Positions 27,679-49,235 of a stretch of 58,973 nucleotides of DNA are shown in pieces. Both the position numbers and the translations under genes were made by a program. Location: the IMG/VR virus record IMGVR_UViG_3300007735_000765, positions 1 through 58,973 of that record; one strand, 5' to 3'. The notes under the pieces were generated by a model. It searched no databases and had not been told where the DNA came from. It saw only the letters and a list, made by a program, of their open reading frames with translations. Positions within the stretch are counted from its first letter, which is position 1; every line of letters begins with the position of its first letter. This stretch comes from a virus.

Positions 27679-29100
27679 TTAGACCGCGTAGCGATCGACC
27701 ATTACAGTCTTTAACATGATTGCTTCTGGTGTGAAGTCATCCATGTCGTTGCTTAAAATGCCTTTGGCCACAGCTGGGCTGAAACCAGACACTAAAGCAG
27801 TGCCGCGCTTGTCGAACTTGACGGGGGTGTTGCCGTAAGCGGCGTTCAAGTTCCAGAATACAACCTTTGGAAGTTCATATCCTGCGGCTTGGTACTTACG
27901 TTCAATCATTTCGATTGCACTGTCATCGTGTTCAACACAAGTGTCAAACTGCATGTCGCTGAAGATAACCAATGTTTCAGGCATTTCTTCTTGCGGTACC
28001 TTGTTTTCCAAGGCAGTCTTAAGTACCAAATCAAATGCCTTGTGCAAATTGGTGTTAGCCACTTCGCCAGTACACATTTGATCAATCTTTTGATTGATAT
28101 TGCCCTTAAGGTTCACTAACTTAGGAGTGTTGCTAAAAGTCAAGAAAGTATCCTTGAATTTACCCTTGTTCTTGTCTGCAAAGTACAGGCCCAAAGACAC
28201 TGCAACTTCCAAACAAGTCAAGCCACTCTTGCTGTTGTAACCACCTGCGGCACAGGTCATTGACCCAGAGCTGTCAACCATTGGCAACACGCTGGCGTCA
28301 CCAATAAAGTTGGGCAATGCATCCCATTGTGCTTGGATAGCATCAAGCTCGGTGTTAGTCCAAGATTGACGGCCCCATGCACCAATACGACCCTTAAGGA
28401 CATCGTATGGGAACACTGCACCAGCGTTAATCTTAACGCCAGCTTCGCCCTTGACCAATTTAGTCACATATTCAGCGTAGGTTGTGCCATGACGACCAAA
28501 CGCTTTCTTGTAACGTGCATGGGCCACACTGGGCACATGGCTATAGTTGATGCTATCCCAGTTGTTGGCACACATCTGTGTTTCAACAACATTGGTCATA
28601 CCAACCAAGGTCTTGCGATATTGCTTTGGGGTCATACCAAAGAATTCACGGATTTCACGTGCAAGATTACCCTTGCGCGGAGTCCACTTTGCGGCAAGAC
28701 CGTTGCCTTCACGAAGATGGTTACCCAACAGGTTGAAGGCTTCCCACTTTAGCTTGGCGTCGGTAAAGACAAACAAGTCGTCAAAACGGCCTAGCTCAGG
28801 GATTTTATGGATCAGCAAAGCCGCATCAGCGGGGTTTGCCTTTTCCATGTATGCCAGGATGTCACGGAAAACTTGACGTTCACCGCTACCACCGCGGGCA
28901 TCTCGAGCCCACAATGCAATACGCAATGCCAAATCTCGATTTTCTACATAGGCCGCAGTAAATGCGGGCACAATGTCTTTACCACGGCTTGCGCCGATGT
29001 TGTAAAACAAGTCAACACAGGCACTGGCCGAGCCGACTCGAGCTTTCATACCGTTAGCGGTACGAGCTGATTGATTCTTAACTGCTTCTGCGAATTGCAT
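27679..29100 (-). CDS. TROVE-domain RNA-binding protein (Ro60 / Rsr homologue)
   Basis: A 473-residue Ro60-like ring protein. The TROVE part fills residues 1-260 (RTANGMKARVGSASACVDLF, LALRIALWARDARGGSGERQ, FGMTPKQYRKTLVGMTNVVE). A vWA domain follows with a MIDAS-type DSSGSM motif in PMVDSSGSMTC and LVIFSDMQFD. Ro60 binds misfolded RNAs and Y RNAs and works with exoribonucleases. Its transcript starts at 29608-29636 and carries three structured RNA elements before the ATG. A role in tRNA/RNA quality control for the phage's odd RNAs is inferred. Confidence 0.9.
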   Translation of the reverse strand: MQFAEAVKNQSARTANGMKARVGSASACVDLFYNIGASRGKDIVPAFTAAYVENRDLALRIALWARDARGGSGERQVFRDILAYMEKANPADAALLIHKIPELGRFDDLFVFTDAKLKWEAFNLLGNHLREGNGLAAKWTPRKGNLAREIREFFGMTPKQYRKTLVGMTNVVETQMCANNWDSINYSHVPSVAHARYKKAFGRHGTTYAEYVTKLVKGEAGVKINAGAVFPYDVLKGRIGAWGRQSWTNTELDAIQAQWDALPNFIGDASVLPMVDSSGSMTCAAGGYNSKSGLTCLEVAVSLGLYFADKNKGKFKDTFLTFSNTPKLVNLKGNINQKIDQMCTGEVANTNLHKAFDLVLKTALENKVPQEEMPETLVIFSDMQFDTCVEHDDSAIEMIERKYQAAGYELPKVVFWNLNAAYGNTPVKFDKRGTALVSGFSPAVAKGILSNDMDDFTPEAIMLKTVMVDRYAV

Positions 29101-33534: not shown

Positions 33535-34848
33535 ATGCAACAAAAAATATTTCCTATAAAAACTGCAACTGCTTGCCAACTTAAATGGAGCCACAGCACA
33601 GTATTTTTGCCTAGCCTCAAAACTGCTAGCTGTCACAGAGTAGAACAAAATTACTTTGATATCAACACATTTGATTTTCATAATACCAAAGAAAAACTAC
33701 AAGCCAGAACAGAAATGTTAGCAGGGCGTTGGCCAGGACATGGCTGTGAGCATTGTAAAAATATCGAGGATTCTGGGGGCGTCAGTGACAGAATTGTACA
33801 CTTAGATTTTCCTGGATTTAGGGCGCCACCGGAACTGGATCACGATTTACAGGCAGTGAATGTTACTCCGCGTGTATTAGAAATCTATTTTAGTAACACC
33901 TGCAACCTTAAATGCGTTTATTGTGTTCCGCAGTTCAGTAGCCAAATTAACCAAGAAAATAAAAAATTTGGTGTATTTCACAACAACGGTGTATTCATTA
34001 AAAGTGTGAACATACCCGACGAATTCAGCGCGGCCACAGAAAAAATGTTTACATGGCTGGATCAAAATTTACAAAATTTAGATAAACTTATTGTATTAGG
34101 CGGGGAACCTTTTATTCAAAAAGAAACAGCCCGCTTACTCTCGCTGATTAATACAAAAAAACTGCCCAACTTATCGCTAACTGTTTTTAGTAATTTAACT
34201 ATTGATCACAATAAATTTAAAAAATATGTAAAAACTCTCAAAGACGTCAAGCACCAAGCTAATCTAAATCAAATTAACATTGTTGCTAGTCTAGATTGCT
34301 GGGGCGATGCCGCGGAGTATGTAAGACAAGGGCTGGACTTAAAATTATTTGAACAAAACTTTTTATATTTGCTCAACGAAACAGATTTCGTCTTAAACAT
34401 AAACTCTGCACTTAGTCCTCTTACTGCGGCAGATCTCCCGGCACTGATTGAAAAGATCAATCATTGGAGTACATCAAGAACAGTATACTGGACCACGATG
34501 AAGACTGCGGGCAGGCCCTATCTTCATCCTACTATTTTTGGCAGTGAGCTATTAGATGCGGGTTTAAATCAAGCCTACGAAACATTTAACAGTCATGGAG
34601 ATCCTGAAAAAATAAAATACAAAGAATATTTTGCAGGAATCATCAGCGAAATAAAACTTAGCAAACCTAATCCCATACATCAACTTCAATTACGAACATA
34701 TTTAGAAGAATTAGATAGGCGTAGAAGCACCAAATACACTACAACATTTCCATGGATTTACCAAAGACTAAAAGTAGTGGTCGATCCTGAGGGATTCGAA
34801 CCCCCAACCGCCGATTTCGAAGACCGGAACTCTATCCAGTTGAGCTAA
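33535..34848 (+). CDS. Radical SAM enzyme with auxiliary Cys region (437 aa)
   Basis: The [4Fe-4S] motif is YFSNTCNLKCVYCVPQFSSQ (Cx3Cx2C) near residue 122, followed by the SAM-binding LIVLGGEPFIQKE (GGE) near 194. The N-terminal 90 residues hold further Cys (ATACQLKW, TASCHRV, HGCEHCKN). This is the layout of twitch/SPASM-type radical SAM proteins found in phages. The last 24 codons run through the antisense strand of tRNA-Arg(TCG), so the tail composition is dictated by the tRNA. A similar gene follows. Substrate unknown: peptide, tRNA or lipid. Confidence 0.75.
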   Translation: MQQKIFPIKTATACQLKWSHSTVFLPSLKTASCHRVEQNYFDINTFDFHNTKEKLQARTEMLAGRWPGHGCEHCKNIEDSGGVSDRIVHLDFPGFRAPPELDHDLQAVNVTPRVLEIYFSNTCNLKCVYCVPQFSSQINQENKKFGVFHNNGVFIKSVNIPDEFSAATEKMFTWLDQNLQNLDKLIVLGGEPFIQKETARLLSLINTKKLPNLSLTVFSNLTIDHNKFKKYVKTLKDVKHQANLNQINIVASLDCWGDAAEYVRQGLDLKLFEQNFLYLLNETDFVLNINSALSPLTAADLPALIEKINHWSTSRTVYWTTMKTAGRPYLHPTIFGSELLDAGLNQAYETFNSHGDPEKIKYKEYFAGIISEIKLSKPNPIHQLQLRTYLEELDRRRSTKYTTTFPWIYQRLKVVVDPEGFEPPTADFEDRNSIQLS

Positions 34849-34854
34849 GGACCG
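34778..34854 (-). tRNA. tRNA-Arg (anticodon TCG)
   Basis: CCA encoded; acceptor CGGTCCT/AGGATCG; anticodon arm CCGGT-CTTCGAA-ATCGG; T loop TTCGAAT. It lies antisense to the 3' end of the radical SAM gene 33535-34848. Confidence 0.9.
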
Positions 34855-34859
34855 TTAAA

Positions 34860-35948
34860 ATGTTTCACTGTGCCGCTATACAAAAAAATATCAGAGTAGA
34901 AGGATCTGCTGTCACAGGACTGAAAATTTTGCCTTGCTGTGTTTATCAAGCAGATCAAAATTATCGCACACTCGCAGAGTACTACAGTAGCACAGAATAT
35001 CAAGAATTACAATCTACTAGCACATGGCCACGGGGATGTGGTGCATGTCGCCAGCAAGAAAATCAAAATCAAACCAGTTACAGACAGTTAGTCAATCAGT
35101 CACTGGATAATATACAGGGACGACGATTTGAAATATTCCCTAGCAATATCTGTAATCTAAAATGTGTTATGTGCAACCCTGCTAATAGCAGTGCATTTGC
35201 ACAAGAACAACAAACTATCGGAATAATCAATAACCAATACGCAAAAGAATTTGATCTCAGCAAAGAAGCGTTGGACTTAATTGACAGCAACGACGACATT
35301 GAAAGTATTAGCTTGATAGGAGGAGAATTCTTTTTATCCAAGGGTAACTTAGAAATATTAGATCTCGCTATTCAACGACAAATACCAATACGTGTTGTCA
35401 CCAATGCCACGGTAATTTTACCCGACCACTTAGCTAAATTAAAACAGTTACAGGATCTTGAATTACAGATCAGCTGTGACGGTGTTCACGAACACTATGA
35501 GTTTATGCGATATCCTGCTCGCTGGGATCGTTTCATTGCAAACAGCGAAACGTTGATACAAGAACTACCACAAGCAAAAATTAACTTTCATTTTGTTGTA
35601 CAGCCACTGAACGCAGAAAATCTTGTTCCCAGTTTAGCATTTTTAAACACACTAAAACGTCCTACACGATTTACTAATCTTGTAACACCAGAATATCTCA
35701 ATTGGTCCATACTCACTGACAGCGAGCGCCTGCGCATCGCAGACACTATGACTAAGCAACTTGCAGAGTTTAGATTAACTGAACGTCAAAAACTTCAAGT
35801 ACAAAGTCTAATAGAAACTATCAGTGGTTCCGCATATTCTGCAGAGAATCGCCAAACATTCAATCGCATAGTAGGCAAGACTATGCAACATCGCGGTGTT
35901 GATTTGGTAGTAGCGGTGGGACTCGAACCCACGATAAACACCGTATGA
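34860..35948 (+). CDS. Radical SAM enzyme, paralogue of the preceding one (362 aa)
   Basis: Same layout as its neighbour: Cys-rich N-terminus (MFHCAAIQ, LPCCVYQ, RGCGACRQQ), [4Fe-4S] motif IFPSNICNLKCVMCNPANSS near residue 97, GGE-type SLIGGEFFLSKGN near 155, and a TIM-barrel strand LQISCDG. Radical SAM pairs often act on one peptide or one nucleic-acid product. The ATG lies six bases after tRNA-Arg(TCG), and the end is antisense to tRNA-Met(35905). Substrate unknown. Confidence 0.75.
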   Translation: MFHCAAIQKNIRVEGSAVTGLKILPCCVYQADQNYRTLAEYYSSTEYQELQSTSTWPRGCGACRQQENQNQTSYRQLVNQSLDNIQGRRFEIFPSNICNLKCVMCNPANSSAFAQEQQTIGIINNQYAKEFDLSKEALDLIDSNDDIESISLIGGEFFLSKGNLEILDLAIQRQIPIRVVTNATVILPDHLAKLKQLQDLELQISCDGVHEHYEFMRYPARWDRFIANSETLIQELPQAKINFHFVVQPLNAENLVPSLAFLNTLKRPTRFTNLVTPEYLNWSILTDSERLRIADTMTKQLAEFRLTERQKLQVQSLIETISGSAYSAENRQTFNRIVGKTMQHRGVDLVVAVGLEPTINTV

Positions 35949-35980: not shown

Positions 35981-36105
35981 ATATAGAAACACACTGTGGC
36001 GCTTGAATCCGCGATAGCCCTTCTCTTCACGGCTGGTCCTTGCTCTGTCTAGAATTGGCAAGTATTTCAGTTGTTCCGCTGTAGCTATTCAATGTGTTTT
36101 TATAT
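35981..36105 (-). ncRNA. Structured RNA enclosed by a 13-bp inverted repeat (E1)
   Basis: ATATAGAAACACA and TGTGTTTTTATAT (one G-T) close a 125-base element filling exactly the space between tRNA-Met and the TTT tRNA. Inside, TTGAATAGC pairs with GCTAT...TTCAA and a T-loop-like ATTCAAG is visible. Arms resemble those of E2 and E3. Confidence 0.5.
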
Positions 36106-36191
36106 GGTGAGTCAGGTGGGAATCGAACCCACAAGGGCAATTTGCCGCCAGATTAAAAGTCTGGTACCGCAACCTATTCGGTGTCTGACCC
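36105..36191 (-). tRNA. Class II tRNA with TTT anticodon (Lys by anticodon)
   Basis: CCA encoded; acceptor GGGTCAG/CTGACTC; D stem ACCG/CGGT; anticodon arm CCAGA-CTTTTAA-TCTGG; T arm GTGGG-TTCGATT-CCCAC. A long variable arm (GGCA-AAT-TGCC) makes it class II, which is normally Leu, Ser or Tyr, not Lys. True charging identity is uncertain. Confidence 0.75.
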
Positions 36192-38371: not shown

Positions 38372-38470
38372 TGGTGCCGCCAGCAGGACTCGAACCTGCA
38401 CACTCAGGCTTATCTGGCCTGTGCTTTGGCGAGGTATAAGCTCGCTTCTTTACCATTAAGCTATGGCGGC
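38372..38470 (-). tRNA. tRNA with TAT anticodon (Ile) and a 29-base variable arm
   Basis: CCA encoded; acceptor GCCGCCA/TGGCGGC; anticodon arm GCGAG-CTTATAC-CTCGC; T arm GCAGG-TTCGAGT-CCTGC. Total 99 nt, longer than most tRNAs. The variable region forms a second anticodon-like hairpin, AGGC-CAGATAA-GCCT. Ile by anticodon, but Ile tRNAs are class I, so charging is uncertain. Confidence 0.75.
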
Positions 38471-38479
38471 AAAAATAAC

Positions 38480-38590
38480 AGGATACCTTCGTTTGACGAA
38501 TGCTCTACCTAATGAGCTAATCTTCCATGCGGAAAATGTTGGAATCGAACCAACTACCTATCGTTTGATAGAATTTGCTGTATGTATCCT
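38480..38590 (-). ncRNA. CAGCAA-family element d containing a circularly permuted tRNA
   Basis: On the minus strand AGGATAC/GTATCCT closes the element and ATACAGCAAATT follows the 5' side. Then comes a tRNA 3' half (T arm GTTGG-TTCGATT-CCAAC, acceptor ATTTTCC), a GCAT linker, and a tRNA 5' half (GGAAGAT, D arm GCTC-ATTAGGTA-GAGC, start of an anticodon stem TTCGT). The halves pair as a normal acceptor helix and ACGA/TCGT can form the anticodon stem. The stop codon of the upstream radical SAM gene lies in the 5' flank TTTTAGGAT. Confidence 0.7.
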
Positions 38591-40187
38591 AAAACTTGAC
38601 TATCGGCACTATGCGCTTAATAGGCTGTGTTCTGTGCCGATAAAATTCTGTGTAATCGTATGTGAGCTTTTTAATTTTATACTCATTGATTCTTTGATCT
38701 GAGCGAGATTTCATCTCAGTCAGTGGTGGCACAGATTTACCTGAAATCCACGTTTTAATATCATTTAAACTATAACCCAAACTCACATAGTCAAACTGAG
38801 TCCATGCGCTGACTCGTTGGTCTGTAACGGATTGATTTAGTTCACAGCTTGTTTTAAGCGCCGTGAAATAATTTTCGCCGTTGTTTAAATCTTTCCAGTA
38901 GCCTACTTTGCTTCTAAAGTTTTCGTCGATAAAAGGTCTGTAAGTATACTGATGCTGGCGATTCTTATACAAATATTCTAACCGCCAAAGTTTACGCACT
39001 TCTGCATTAACTTCTGAGTCAGACATTATACTCAATCCATATCTATCAAACTCTTTGCTGAATTCGCTGGTATGAATTGTTTTTTCTTGTTTGGTAATGT
39101 ACAAAGGTTGCCAATACCAATATTCAACACCACTGGTCTGTAACCATTGGTTTTCACTGTGATAATCACTGTCATCTCCAGGTAATCCAACAATCATTGA
39201 ACAGTTTGTAGTAACATTGGGCATCTGTTCTTTCCACCACAGAATAGCATCTTTAGCACGTTGTCCAGTAAATCCTTTGCCTACTAAACGACCAGCTTCT
39301 TTGCTAAAAGTTTCTATTCCAAAGTGAATACCTTGCAGTCCCATGTTTCGTAATAATTCTGCACTGTGCGGCCGGGCCGCAATTAAATCAAGTCTGCCAT
39401 AGGCAGTAAAATTAATTTTAAATGGTAAGCTAGTAATAGCTCGCTCCAGTGTCTCTAATTTTTCAATGCTGTCATTGAATGTATCTTCATTGATAAGGTA
39501 ATTTGTTATGCCCCACTGATCGTAGTTTGTTTTTAATTCTGTGACAATAGTGTTGGGGTCACGTATGTAATCCAATTTACTTTTACCAATCAATGGGTAT
39601 GTGCAAAATTTACACTTAAAAATACAACCCCTGGCAGTTTCCATACCAAGAGTTTGCTCTGGGCGAAGAAAATCTGTGCTAAGATATTCTATGGTCAAGT
39701 CATTGGTATCCACAGGACCGTAATCGGTCAATGCGTCTATTAGATTGTCTGCCAATGGACTCCAGTGAATATCATTGCGATCAATTTTACCACGAAGATA
39801 ATCCAGTAAATGCAGTATAGCATTTTCTGCGTAACCTTCTACATAGTAGTCCACGCAAGGAATACTACGTGTTAATGTTTGATTGCCGCCTAATACTATA
39901 GGAAGATTGGGATAGCGTTGCTTAATTAGTCGTATGGTGTCGTCAAACCGCGACCTATCTAAAAATAGATTGCTACCTATACCTAAAAACAATGTTGAAT
40001 TAGATATTAACTTTGACAATAACTCAAGAAGCTCTGATTCAGACCAACTCAGGCAATAGTCAATGACTTCTATGTTATATCCGTGTTGTCTAAGGTGTGT
40101 GGCAATTTTGTGTGCGCCTGCACCTCTGTGACAAGTTATATCTAAATTGTTAAAGGTGTTGTCTGTGAGTATTACACCATGTATCAT
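38589..40187 (-). CDS. B12-binding-type radical SAM enzyme (532 aa)
   Basis: The N-terminal ~150 residues look like a cobalamin-binding Rossmann domain (HKIATHLRQHGYNIEVIDYC, LPIVLGGNQTLT). The radical SAM motif TARGCIFKCKFCTYP (Cx3Cx2C) lies near residue 190, with later strands ITNYLINEDTFND and SMIVGLPGDD. This is the class B methylthio/methyltransferase layout. It may methylate an unactivated carbon in a lipid, peptide or sugar. Coupled by a four-base overlap to the oxygenase gene upstream. Confidence 0.75.
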   Translation of the reverse strand: MIHGVILTDNTFNNLDITCHRGAGAHKIATHLRQHGYNIEVIDYCLSWSESELLELLSKLISNSTLFLGIGSNLFLDRSRFDDTIRLIKQRYPNLPIVLGGNQTLTRSIPCVDYYVEGYAENAILHLLDYLRGKIDRNDIHWSPLADNLIDALTDYGPVDTNDLTIEYLSTDFLRPEQTLGMETARGCIFKCKFCTYPLIGKSKLDYIRDPNTIVTELKTNYDQWGITNYLINEDTFNDSIEKLETLERAITSLPFKINFTAYGRLDLIAARPHSAELLRNMGLQGIHFGIETFSKEAGRLVGKGFTGQRAKDAILWWKEQMPNVTTNCSMIVGLPGDDSDYHSENQWLQTSGVEYWYWQPLYITKQEKTIHTSEFSKEFDRYGLSIMSDSEVNAEVRKLWRLEYLYKNRQHQYTYRPFIDENFRSKVGYWKDLNNGENYFTALKTSCELNQSVTDQRVSAWTQFDYVSLGYSLNDIKTWISGKSVPPLTEMKSRSDQRINEYKIKKLTYDYTEFYRHRTQPIKRIVPIVKF

Positions 40188-41606: not shown

Positions 41607-41667
41607 AGGATCGTTTTTTACGGTTTAGATTAAAAGTCTAATGTATTTGATTTGCTGAACCGATCCT
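41607..41667 (-). ncRNA. CAGCAA-family element b: mini-RNA with TTT anticodon-like arm
   Basis: On the minus strand AGGATCG/CGATCCT (seven pairs), GTTCAGCAAATC inside, and an anticodon-like arm TTAGA-CTTTTAA-TCTAA that matches the arm of the class II TTT tRNA closely. No D or T arm. Flanks TTTTAGGAT and ATCCTGTTATT are shared with other members. Confidence 0.6.
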
Positions 41668-41674
41668 AAAAATT

Positions 41675-41758
41675 GCCATATAAAAACACACTAGAACGAC
41701 CATAGCATACAAAAAGACCTGGTAGTCAAAATGCTATGCTAGTGTGTTTTTATATGGC
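41675..41758 (-). ncRNA. RNA enclosed by a perfect 19-bp inverted repeat (E2)
   Basis: GCCATATAAAAACACACTA and its exact complement close an 84-base element; an inner CATAGCAT/ATGCTATG stem and GAC-TACCAG-GTC hairpin continue the helix. One arm includes the last four bases of tRNA-Asn, so folding and tRNA 3' maturation must compete. Confidence 0.6.
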
Positions 41759-43140: not shown

Positions 43141-43223
43141 CCTGTAACTTGTACAGGTCTACATGACAAATTAAATTTTTAAAGAACTTGTTCATCAGTT
43201 AGTTTCCTAACTGTCTAAGTTGT
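43141..43223 (-). other. Leader between the tRNA promoter and RNA E3
   Basis: Short, AT-rich, with CCTGT/ACAGG and CAGTTAG/CTAACTG hairpins. No gene seen. Confidence 0.35.
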
Positions 43224-43252
43224 ATTGTAGCAGAAGTCCAATTTATTGTCTA
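43224..43252 (-). promoter_or_regulatory. Sigma70 promoter for E3 and the tRNA block 41.0-42.9 kb
   Basis: TAGACA (43247-43252) and TACAAT (43224-43229), 17-base spacer, minus strand. Confidence 0.7.
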
Positions 43253-43305
43253 TACCCCGCCAATTTGAACGGATATCTAATACTTAGGTTTGCAAAACGG
43301 GCACC

Positions 43306-43313
43306 AATAAATA
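43306..43313 (+). promoter_or_regulatory. T4-type late promoter (AATAAATA) of the ketosynthase gene
   Basis: Five-base gap to ATG 43319, the recurring leaderless spacing. Confidence 0.65.
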
Positions 43314-43318
43314 TCTGC

Positions 43319-44290
43319 ATGCAATTAGAACTACTTGACTATCAATACCTTCCAAACTGGAATTTAGGCGAATTAACTACGGCGTTCAAACAACGCCACG
43401 ACATCAATCCTAAATGGCCTTTGGTCTGCACCACACTTAGCAGTTTCAGCAGTGAAGCTATTCACTCAGTTTGGGCAGACTTTACACATGGTAAACGTCG
43501 TGGTCGGCCACGTGAAATACGTAGCAGTACCATTGATAGTGCATTCACTTATATTGCCGAACAACTAGGTCTCACAGGCTTTGTGCAAAACGTGCAAGGT
43601 GCCTGTGCTGGCAGTTTATATGCATTTTACAATGCCGCATTGATCAGTCAAGCCACCCAACAACCAGTGGTTGTATGGTGCGATGACAATTACATTCATC
43701 CGTACGGTGCATGGCACTTCAACAGCTTCGGCGCACTGGACCAGGATACAGGCTTGCCTTTTGATAGTACATCTAAAGGATTCAAATTGGGCGATGGTGC
43801 CGCGCTGTACTTGGTCAAGCATCCTAGTGTAAAGTACACCTCAGATGTTCGCGCATTCATTCAAAACTTTCATTTCTACACCAATCCCGAATTAGTAACT
43901 AATCCTGGCTCAGCAGAAGATATCATTCGAAACCTTAGTTCTATTGATTTTAAAAGTGTTGAACTATGGAATGCACATGCCACAGGAACCCCTGTGGGCG
44001 ATCCTGTAGAATACGAATTCTTTAGCAAAACTATTAAACAAGACTGTCCAATCATTGGCTACAAGGGCTATGTTGGACATACACTCAGTGCCTGCGGTGC
44101 TGTAGAAATAGCATTGGCTCTACAAGACAAAGCACGTAACGAACTTCGTCCTAATGTATTAGCAGGCCCCGCTATCGCCAACGACGACAGGATTATCACC
44201 GAGCCCACTGCATTTCCATACACTCGTATGTTAAAAGCCAGCATGGGCTTTGGCGGTAAAATTGCTGTAGTTGAAATAGACTTGTATTAA
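43319..44290 (+). CDS. Beta-ketoacyl-ACP synthase-like condensing enzyme (323 aa)
   Basis: Start ATG 43319 is chosen from the late box five bases before it; the frame is open from 43220. All three catalytic residues of a KAS are present: Cys in VQGACAGSLYAFYNAA, His in WNAHATGTPVGDPVEYEFF, His in YKGYVGHTLSACGAVEIALA, and KASMGFGGKIAVVEI at the end. It is shorter than FabF/FabB (about 410) and lacks part of the N-terminal half. It could elongate or build a special acyl chain for the desaturases encoded nearby. Substrate unknown. Confidence 0.8.
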   Translation: MQLELLDYQYLPNWNLGELTTAFKQRHDINPKWPLVCTTLSSFSSEAIHSVWADFTHGKRRGRPREIRSSTIDSAFTYIAEQLGLTGFVQNVQGACAGSLYAFYNAALISQATQQPVVVWCDDNYIHPYGAWHFNSFGALDQDTGLPFDSTSKGFKLGDGAALYLVKHPSVKYTSDVRAFIQNFHFYTNPELVTNPGSAEDIIRNLSSIDFKSVELWNAHATGTPVGDPVEYEFFSKTIKQDCPIIGYKGYVGHTLSACGAVEIALALQDKARNELRPNVLAGPAIANDDRIITEPTAFPYTRMLKASMGFGGKIAVVEIDLY

Positions 44291-44376: not shown

Positions 44377-44427
44377 AGGATACGCTTTTTCTTTATACCA
44401 AAAAGATTTAAGTGCTGAAAGTATCCT
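44377..44427 (-). ncRNA. CAGCAA-family element c: 51-nt mini-RNA with GGT anticodon-like arm
   Basis: On the minus strand AGGATAC/GTATCCT (seven pairs), TTTCAGCAC inside, then TCTTT-TTGGTAT-AAAGA, an anticodon-like arm for Thr (GGT), then AAAAGC. No D or T arm. Squeezed between tRNA-Ala and tRNA-Cys with shared family flanks. Confidence 0.6.
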
Positions 44428-48440: not shown

Positions 48441-49235
48441 ATGGGTACAGACTACAGTTTAATAAAATCAAAATTTCTTTGGTTCGTTGGCATGGGCGCA
48501 CTAGTTGCCAGTCTTGTATGGACTGTGTATACACAGGAATGGCTATACTGGTTTGTTAGCTATCTTTATTTCAGATGCATCAGTGTTATATCCAATAACA
48601 TTAGCCTACATCGATACTTTGCACATAAGAGCTTTAAAACTGGTCCAAAGAGACACCAACTATTAGCGTGGATCACACTGCTATCCGGAGTTGGTAGCCC
48701 TTTTATCTATGCCATACATCACAGACACCATCACAAGTACAGCGATCAACCACAAGACCTGCACAGTCCCCGGGAAAGTTTTTGGCGTAGCTTTTTAGGA
48801 ACGTGGGTTCTCAAAGACACAAAGTGGTGGATAGAAGAAAAGAAAGTTACACTGTTTCCTAGAGACTTAATTAGAGACCCTAGTGTAAAATTTATTACAG
48901 AACACTATCACAAGATGTGGCTAGCCCTGGTCTTAATGGCTTGGCTTGTTGGAGGTTTTAAATTCTGCTTGTTCTATATGCTAGCACCAGTAGGATGGAA
49001 TCTATTTCAAGGTGCAATGGTCAACTGCATAGACCATTTGAAATTGCCGGGAAGTTATAGAAACTACGATACCAACGACTATAGTTATAACAACAAAGTT
49101 CTAAATTGGTTCTTACTGGGCGAAGGCCTGCATAACAATCATCACTATGATCAAGCCAATTATAGACAAGCACATAAACCCGACGAATATGATCCTGCAG
49201 GTTGGATTATAGAAAAATTCTTTAAAGTTAATTGA
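48441..49235 (+). CDS. Fatty acid desaturase (264 aa)
   Basis: Intact di-iron membrane desaturase: His boxes LHRYFAHKSF, HHRHHHKYSD and GEGLHNNHHYD, with four membrane helices (FLWFVGMGALVASLVWTVY, LALVLMAWLVGGFKF). It differs clearly from the desaturases at 25976 and 44885-45630, so the phage holds three kinds. Late and leaderless expression suggests a role near the end of infection, perhaps in membrane fluidity or release. Confidence 0.85.
   Translation: MGTDYSLIKSKFLWFVGMGALVASLVWTVYTQEWLYWFVSYLYFRCISVISNNISLHRYFAHKSFKTGPKRHQLLAWITLLSGVGSPFIYAIHHRHHHKYSDQPQDLHSPRESFWRSFLGTWVLKDTKWWIEEKKVTLFPRDLIRDPSVKFITEHYHKMWLALVLMAWLVGGFKFCLFYMLAPVGWNLFQGAMVNCIDHLKLPGSYRNYDTNDYSYNNKVLNWFLLGEGLHNNHHYDQANYRQAHKPDEYDPAGWIIEKFFKVN

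Follow-up and report, generated by a model that had tools for sequence, protein, structure and literature searches.

A probable YrlA-type Y RNA with a permuted tRNA-like body, and further RNAs with the same ends, linked to a Ro60-like gene in a phage genome

The minus-strand element at positions 38590–38480 of the window (the whole 58,973-nucleotide stretch of DNA from an uncultured virus analysed here, IMG/VR record IMGVR_UViG_3300007735_000765) is very probably a YrlA-type phage Y RNA, that is, a mimic of tRNA. An earlier note, made from the sequence alone, had described it as a circularly permuted tRNA gene, a claim that I find partly supported: the order of the tRNA pieces was right, but the reading as a gene with rejoined halves is not supported. 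The structure of the element is conserved by paired changes among its homologues, its ends form a handle that it shares with multiple other RNAs, and this handle is linked to a gene encoding a Ro60-like protein.

All of the tRNA pieces listed in the earlier note are present on the minus strand, in the permuted order. In the predicted fold of the element alone, the closing helix is followed by a small hairpin, the T arm, the acceptor stem with its GCAT cap, the D arm and a second small hairpin. This fold has a minimum free energy of −34.3 kcal/mol, against −18.5 ± 3.0 for 200 shuffled sequences, none of which is as low (z −5.3). The closing helix pairs AGGATAC (38590–38584) with GTATCCT (38486–38480, followed by GTT) and encloses all other parts, as had been claimed; four of its seven pairs show two-sided changes among relatives, and its 3′ arm agrees with the ends found family-wide. 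The TAG stop codon of an upstream ORF of 532 amino acids overlaps the first bases of the element. A CAGCAA motif (38580–38575) begins 9 nt past the first G of the GG, a spacing found in all elements of this kind. It is followed by the hairpin CTATC-AAAC-GATAG (38571–38558), seen in the fold and in relatives, which occupies the place of the anticodon arm but has a 4-nt loop and no anticodon. The T arm GTTGG-TTCGATT-CCAAC (38554–38538) is supported by sequence, fold and covariation. The acceptor stem and its cap (38537–38520) consist of ATTTTCC (38537–38531), GCAT (38530–38527) and GGAAGAT (38526–38520), and the seven pairs announced across GCAT do form a 7-bp stem in the fold. Fold and covariation likewise support the D arm GCTC-ATTAGGTA-GAGC (38517–38502), and the last hairpin, TTCGT-CAA-ACGAA (38500–38488), is seen in the fold.

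Other parts of the earlier description did not hold. GCAT, taken there as a linker between two halves, is a hairpin cap. The proposed ACGA/TCGT anticodon stem is not in the fold, which has the two separate local hairpins instead, and the candidate loops measure 3–4 nt, with no 7-nt anticodon loop. The element contains neither CCA nor a fixed discriminator, and its closing helix is uninterrupted in the predicted fold, with no bulge-helix-bulge at the ends. The TCAAACGA direct repeat, suggested as the mark of a junction, is not conserved (locus L139 has CATAAACGA at the first site, and L254 and L310 have TCAAGAA at the second), and therefore marks no junction; by inspection, joining the halves at this repeat yields no 5-bp/7-nt arm. 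ARAGORN does not call the element as a tRNA, and the Rfam tRNA model does not report it. The short loops, the lack of CCA and the lack of a splice-like junction argue for a tRNA mimic and not a permuted tRNA gene.

A tRNA-mimic RNA was the alternative offered in the earlier note, and it agrees with a match, over the full length of the element, to the bacterial Y RNA YrlA (Rfam RF02553). The local search gave 34.8 bits and an E-value of 2.3e-6 (model positions 1–114), and the same match has an E-value of 2.6e-4 in a 21-kb search, with the T arm, acceptor and D arm in register. This score is below the Rfam gathering score of 69, a threshold set by curators rather than a feature of the biology; "YrlA-type" is used here for the same architecture, without a claim to Rfam membership, and because of the low score the case is rested on conservation and not on the YrlA label. 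No further YrlA match was found at E ≤ 1 in the cluster of 30-odd tRNA genes. The homologue at L003 (10530–10645) is also matched by YrlA, while its acceptor stem is AGTTGGC/GCCAATT, as opposed to ATTTTCC/GGAAGAT in the window.

YrlA combines a basal stem for Rsr with a tRNA-like domain, and is modified by DusA and TruB (PMC8394870). Like YrlA of the Salmonella rsr-yrlBA-rtcBA operon, the element has a basal stem made of its paired 5′ and 3′ ends, a permuted series of T arm, capped acceptor and D arm, and a linked Ro60/Rsr-type gene, which lies on the same strand, has three sister elements directly upstream and is linked to such elements in many phages. It differs from YrlA in its handle, which is GG-N7-CAGCAA where YrlA has its own stem consensus; in the added hairpins beside the T and D arms, one of which is a canonical anticodon arm in L089 and L219; in having six members in the window; and in its partner, a DUF2828/DUF7788 protein and not one recognised by the TROVE profile. 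A permuted two-piece tmRNA also has a tRNA-like domain with loop-joined acceptor strands, but this identity was rejected, as tmRNA models gave no match to the element at E ≤ 10.

The evidence that the structure is maintained comes from its relatives. Among 12 homologues (from uncultured phages and mycobacteriophage Faith1), gathered by a parser that requires pairing, 252 of 252 cells are paired over the 21 pairs tested, a percentage that is partly selected, while two-sided changes occur at 13 of the 21 pairs, a count that is not. Covariation in this alignment is 0.468, compared to 0.107 ± 0.023 after shuffling (0/500) and at most 0.102 when the pairing is slid. The earlier note had named the absence of compensatory changes in relatives as the sign of a dead rearrangement; such changes are abundant. 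Furthermore, 33 distinct acceptor stems chosen without a pairing rule form 6.1 of 7 pairs, versus 3.1 ± 0.25 with swapped partners. In relatives the cap is 3–13 nt long and differs in sequence (GCAT, TTCAT, ACAT, CGAAAG, GGTAAC and others), and this combination of kept acceptor pairs and a freely varying cap indicates that what is maintained is a tRNA mimic with a capped acceptor. Of the two small hairpins, CTATC/GATAG is preserved through paired changes (CTAAC/GTTAG in L128 and L290), and TTCGT-CAA-ACGAA is not kept in L254 and L310. A DNA search with the element found no match among named phages, because conservation is limited to the structure and the handle.

The handle consists of ends of the form GG-N7-CAGCA ... 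CC-U-GUU or similar, and five more RNAs on the same strand of the window possess it, with lengths of 49–228 nt and differing inner parts; the closing-helix module is also present on RNAs without tRNA halves. A short one (29183–29130) is located just before the Ro-like start codon, preceded by one of 145 nt (29587–29442) and one of 228 nt (29429–29201) whose inner modules were not recognised and for which Rfam gave no match. Counterparts of these two long elements are found upstream of the Ro-like gene elsewhere, for example at L089 (5507, 5629) and L139 (3016, 3140). A short element at 41667–41608 carries the anticodon stem-loop TTAGA-CTTTTAA-TCTAA (41641–41625; UUU, Lys), and another, at 44427–44378, lies between tRNA-Ala and tRNA-Cys. 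Over all fetched loci, a hand-made motif detected 313 unique handle elements, and almost none in shuffled sequence. The closing helices covary, with 28 distinct stems forming 3.5 of 4 variable pairs compared to 2.1. From its linkage to the gene described below, the handle (closing helix plus CAGCAA) is presumed to be the Ro-binding module.

This gene (27679–29100, minus strand) is 9.4 kb downstream of the element on the same strand, directly after the three handle elements. It encodes a protein of 473 amino acids with DUF2828 and DUF7788 domains and the MIDAS motif DSSGSM, in which D276, S278, G279 and S280 are invariant across 30 sequences. The protein falls in phrog_850, "RNA-binding protein" (E 1.9e-138), and 673 phage records encode homologues, those of mycobacteriophages being named "Ro-like RNA binding protein". 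I generated an AF2 model from 30 diverse sequences (pLDDT 78); a previous model, based on 13 close sequences, had a low pLDDT of 57 and was set aside. The predicted model shows the Ro60 arrangement of helical repeats and a vWA domain with a MIDAS motif, and its top four Foldseek matches in the PDB, which include 9kop, 9l5y and 9nf8 and among which is the Ro60 of Thermus phage phiLo, are all Ro60/TROVE proteins (E 7e-8 to 6e-6, TM-scores 0.35–0.57). The TROVE profile PF05731 matches neither this protein nor any other part of the window. Given these TM-scores and the absent profile match, the protein is, according to the predicted model, a distant relative of Ro60 by fold.

The linkage between handle and Ro-like gene is strong in both directions. 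All 12 loci selected by their Ro-like protein have handle elements, 40 in 126 kb with 0 in shuffles, and conversely a Ro-like gene is present in 50 of 118 loci selected by the handle motif (about 9 kb each), versus 2/75 and 3/120 other loci. Named phages with both include mycobacteriophage Faith1, Listeria AG20, Synechococcus BUCT-ZZ01, Cronobacter S13, Pseudomonas Milchi and Campylobacter CP30A; for Felixounavirus SP116 the pairing was read by eye. Earlier work has reported or proposed both Ro-like proteins and Y RNAs in phages (PMC12282133, PMC7824862, PMC7765460), and putative Y RNAs accompany the Listeria phage protein CKA15_055 (PMC12282133). The window protein shares family or fold with these (phrog_850, the mycobacteriophage proteins, CKA15_055, phiLo 9l5y), and the Listeria and mycobacteriophage loci have the same small-RNA neighbourhood. 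The difference is that the RNAs of the window are resolved into a common handle and exchangeable inserts, anticodon arms among them.

These arms are frequent. A 5-bp/7-nt hairpin with Y32, U33 and R37 is found in 70 of 143 short elements, versus 2.6 ± 1.6 in shuffles, although the short elements are related in sequence (35 distinct arms are left after removal of identical ones), so that these counts are not independent events. Several distinct arms carry one loop on different paired stems. The anticodons read from the loops include UUU (Lys), UGU, UCU (Arg), GUU (Asn), GUA (Tyr), GCA, GGA and UGA; position 36 is U or A in 22 of 23 loop types and A37 follows in nearly all, as in t6A/i6A tRNAs. 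The element at 41667–41608 and the tRNA-Lys(UUU) of the window (36105–36191) have AGACTTTTAATCT in common, 13 bases within the anticodon arm, and a Campylobacter phage has an element with CATTA-CTGCTAA-TAATG before its Ro-like gene. The larger members at L089 and L219 possess, in their parsed segments, all four arms: an anticodon arm (CTTCTAA), a T arm, a capped acceptor and a D arm. In Faith1 the loop CTGTTAA stands where the anticodon arm would be, but the minimum-energy fold of that RNA does not favour a tRNA shape. Taken singly, the short elements have weak predicted folds (z between about −0.5 and −1.3).

A related arrangement is seen in tRNA genes of ordinary order, in Cronobacter S13, Synechococcus BUCT-ZZ01, L129, L282, L288 and L290, where a hairpin between the D arm and the anticodon arm ends in NNN-CAGCA (or CTGCA) with handle-like spacing. 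Some of these genes are annotated as tRNA-Ser or tRNA-OTHER. The scan for them gave 15 matches, of which a few look like chance (in L066 and L069 the hairpin is the anticodon arm itself), and a broad tRNA pattern scan returned mostly ordinary tandem tRNAs. Handle-like inserts at this place are recorded at L343 (5872–6114) and L344 (5574–5815). An insert-bearing tRNA gene has the layout of the permuted Y RNA, except that its ends lie at the acceptor and not at the handle; the insert may bind the Ro-like protein. Neither anticodon arms on Y RNAs nor handle-bearing tRNA genes are reported in the searchable literature, which does not extend to the main Y RNA papers; these two features, and the larger members with all four tRNA arms, look new, whereas the pairing of Ro proteins and Y RNAs in phages is already known in broad terms.

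Other elements were noted as well. A further class of Y RNAs with a permuted tRNA-like form (L085 2301, L091 3088, L139 2346, L041 9505, L241 6359, L314 3969) has the ends AGGTTC...GAGAACCT, a TTGGTC cap and the D arm GTGTAGTGGTAGCAC. In the tRNA arrays there is also a second hairpin-ended family, whose members have long and nearly identical ends, CCATATAAAAACACATT ... AGTGTGTTTCTATATGG, while the ~50–130 nt between these are unrelated; it is found in the window at 41757–41676 and 36107–35979 (minus strand), at L001 7081, L002 6995, L003 6322, L041 7308 and L213 6407, and at ~30 more places. A T-arm-like sequence is present in a few of its members, and judged by their ends these are not Y RNAs. 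Next to the element lies a 96-nt tRNA-Ile(UAU) whose variable arm is extended (38375–38470, minus strand); it is found by Rfam and missed by ARAGORN, which does call its counterparts in L001–L003. Genes for three radical SAM proteins, of which one has a B12-binding domain, lie between the tRNA genes, and a ketoacyl synthase gene and a gene for a fatty acid desaturase were noted too; the coordinates given for these genes are 33535–35948, 38589–40187, 43220–44290 and 48441–49235.

Could the element nonetheless be a genuine permuted tRNA gene, whose precursor RNase P and 3′ processing would open at the acceptor cap and whose halves a phage RNA ligase would join into a working tRNA? The order of the halves, the complete acceptor, T and D arms, the canonical anticodon arm of L089 and L219, and a "tRNA splicing ligase" gene near the Ro-like gene of a Listeria phage all speak for it. 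However, a cap whose length and sequence vary freely, 3–4 nt loops, and a closing helix that is common to elements without tRNA halves and offers no bulge-helix-bulge make this very improbable, as does the missing CCA. As in the permuted tRNA genes known from red algae, green algae and an archaeon, the 3′ half of the element precedes the 5′ half; unlike those genes, the element has no splice junction or anticodon, its acceptor is capped and its closing helix is permanent. A self-splicing or bulge-helix-bulge-spliced tRNA was rejected for the same reason, since the fold has neither junction nor loop. Still further from likely, with hardly any probability left to it, is a dead tRNA gene rearranged by recombination: an array of more than 30 tRNA genes makes rearrangements likely, but none of the 252 cells is unpaired, paired changes occur throughout, and the same architecture recurs in many phages. 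A tRNA split by a mobile element, with its 5′ half elsewhere, was also rejected, as in L001–L003 the same ORF is followed directly by tRNA-Ile, without halves.

For the YrlA-type Y RNA, I propose that the handle is held by the phage Ro60-like protein, a putative ring, while the rest would fold as a tRNA body, with the T and D loops at the elbow and a tetraloop-closed acceptor. An acceptor closed in this way would allow neither charging nor use in translation. Lying inside the tRNA array, the element is probably expressed and processed as part of the array's transcript. On the Ro-like protein it may act as a tRNA-shaped adaptor, bringing a tRNA-binding enzyme to the ring (PNPase for known Y RNAs), or as a decoy that draws off tRNA-cutting enzymes.

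Both roles are compatible with a YrlA-type Y RNA. As a tether, the tRNA-like module would anchor an RNA-degrading or RNA-repair enzyme on the Ro-like ring, either PNPase, by analogy with RYPER, or a ligase, so that damaged RNAs could be broken down or mended there. A role of a Y RNA with PNPase has been shown in Deinococcus (PMC7790460, PMC8394870), and tethering has been proposed for phage CKA15 (PMC12282133); these precedents make the idea plausible, if somewhat short of an even chance, and bare arms with many different anticodons are not readily explained by it. As decoys, the handle RNAs would offer a tRNA body and bare anticodon arms, on a protective Ro-like RNP, to host anticodon nucleases or other tRNA-targeting defences, with the phage also bringing its own set of tRNAs. 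The excess of anticodon arms over shuffles, the U36 or A36 followed by A37, and the arm that matches the phage tRNA-Lys are in favour, as is the proposal that Salmonella YrlA is a competitive inhibitor of an anticodon nuclease (PMC7790460). On the other hand, no defence gene or nuclease was identified, the element at 38590–38480 has no anticodon, and the inner modules of 145–240 nt are not recognisably tRNA-like. I put the decoy role forward tentatively, at about one chance in three. In my judgement the bare anticodon arms by themselves lean towards the decoy over the tether.

Taken more broadly, a modular Ro60-like RNP can be envisaged, as a possibility that I hold a little below evens: one protein with many common-handle RNAs, each displaying a tRNA part, be it the body, a bare arm bearing any of roughly a dozen anticodons, or an entire tRNA that has the handle between its D and anticodon arms. 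Permuted and unpermuted genes would then encode the same shape with the ends moved, and the set would serve as decoys or adaptors against tRNA-cutting defences. The occurrence of handle-inserted tRNA genes beside permuted Y RNAs suggests a route by which a permuted tRNA mimic may arise from a tRNA gene. The extraordinary claim of a spliced permuted tRNA gene in a phage is removed, and a testable Ro/Y RNA system takes its place. Several hundred sequenced phages encode the Ro-like protein, the handle makes its RNAs findable by sequence, and together with inserts recognisable as anticodon arms and tRNA bodies it offers a concrete hypothesis on the function of phage Y RNAs.
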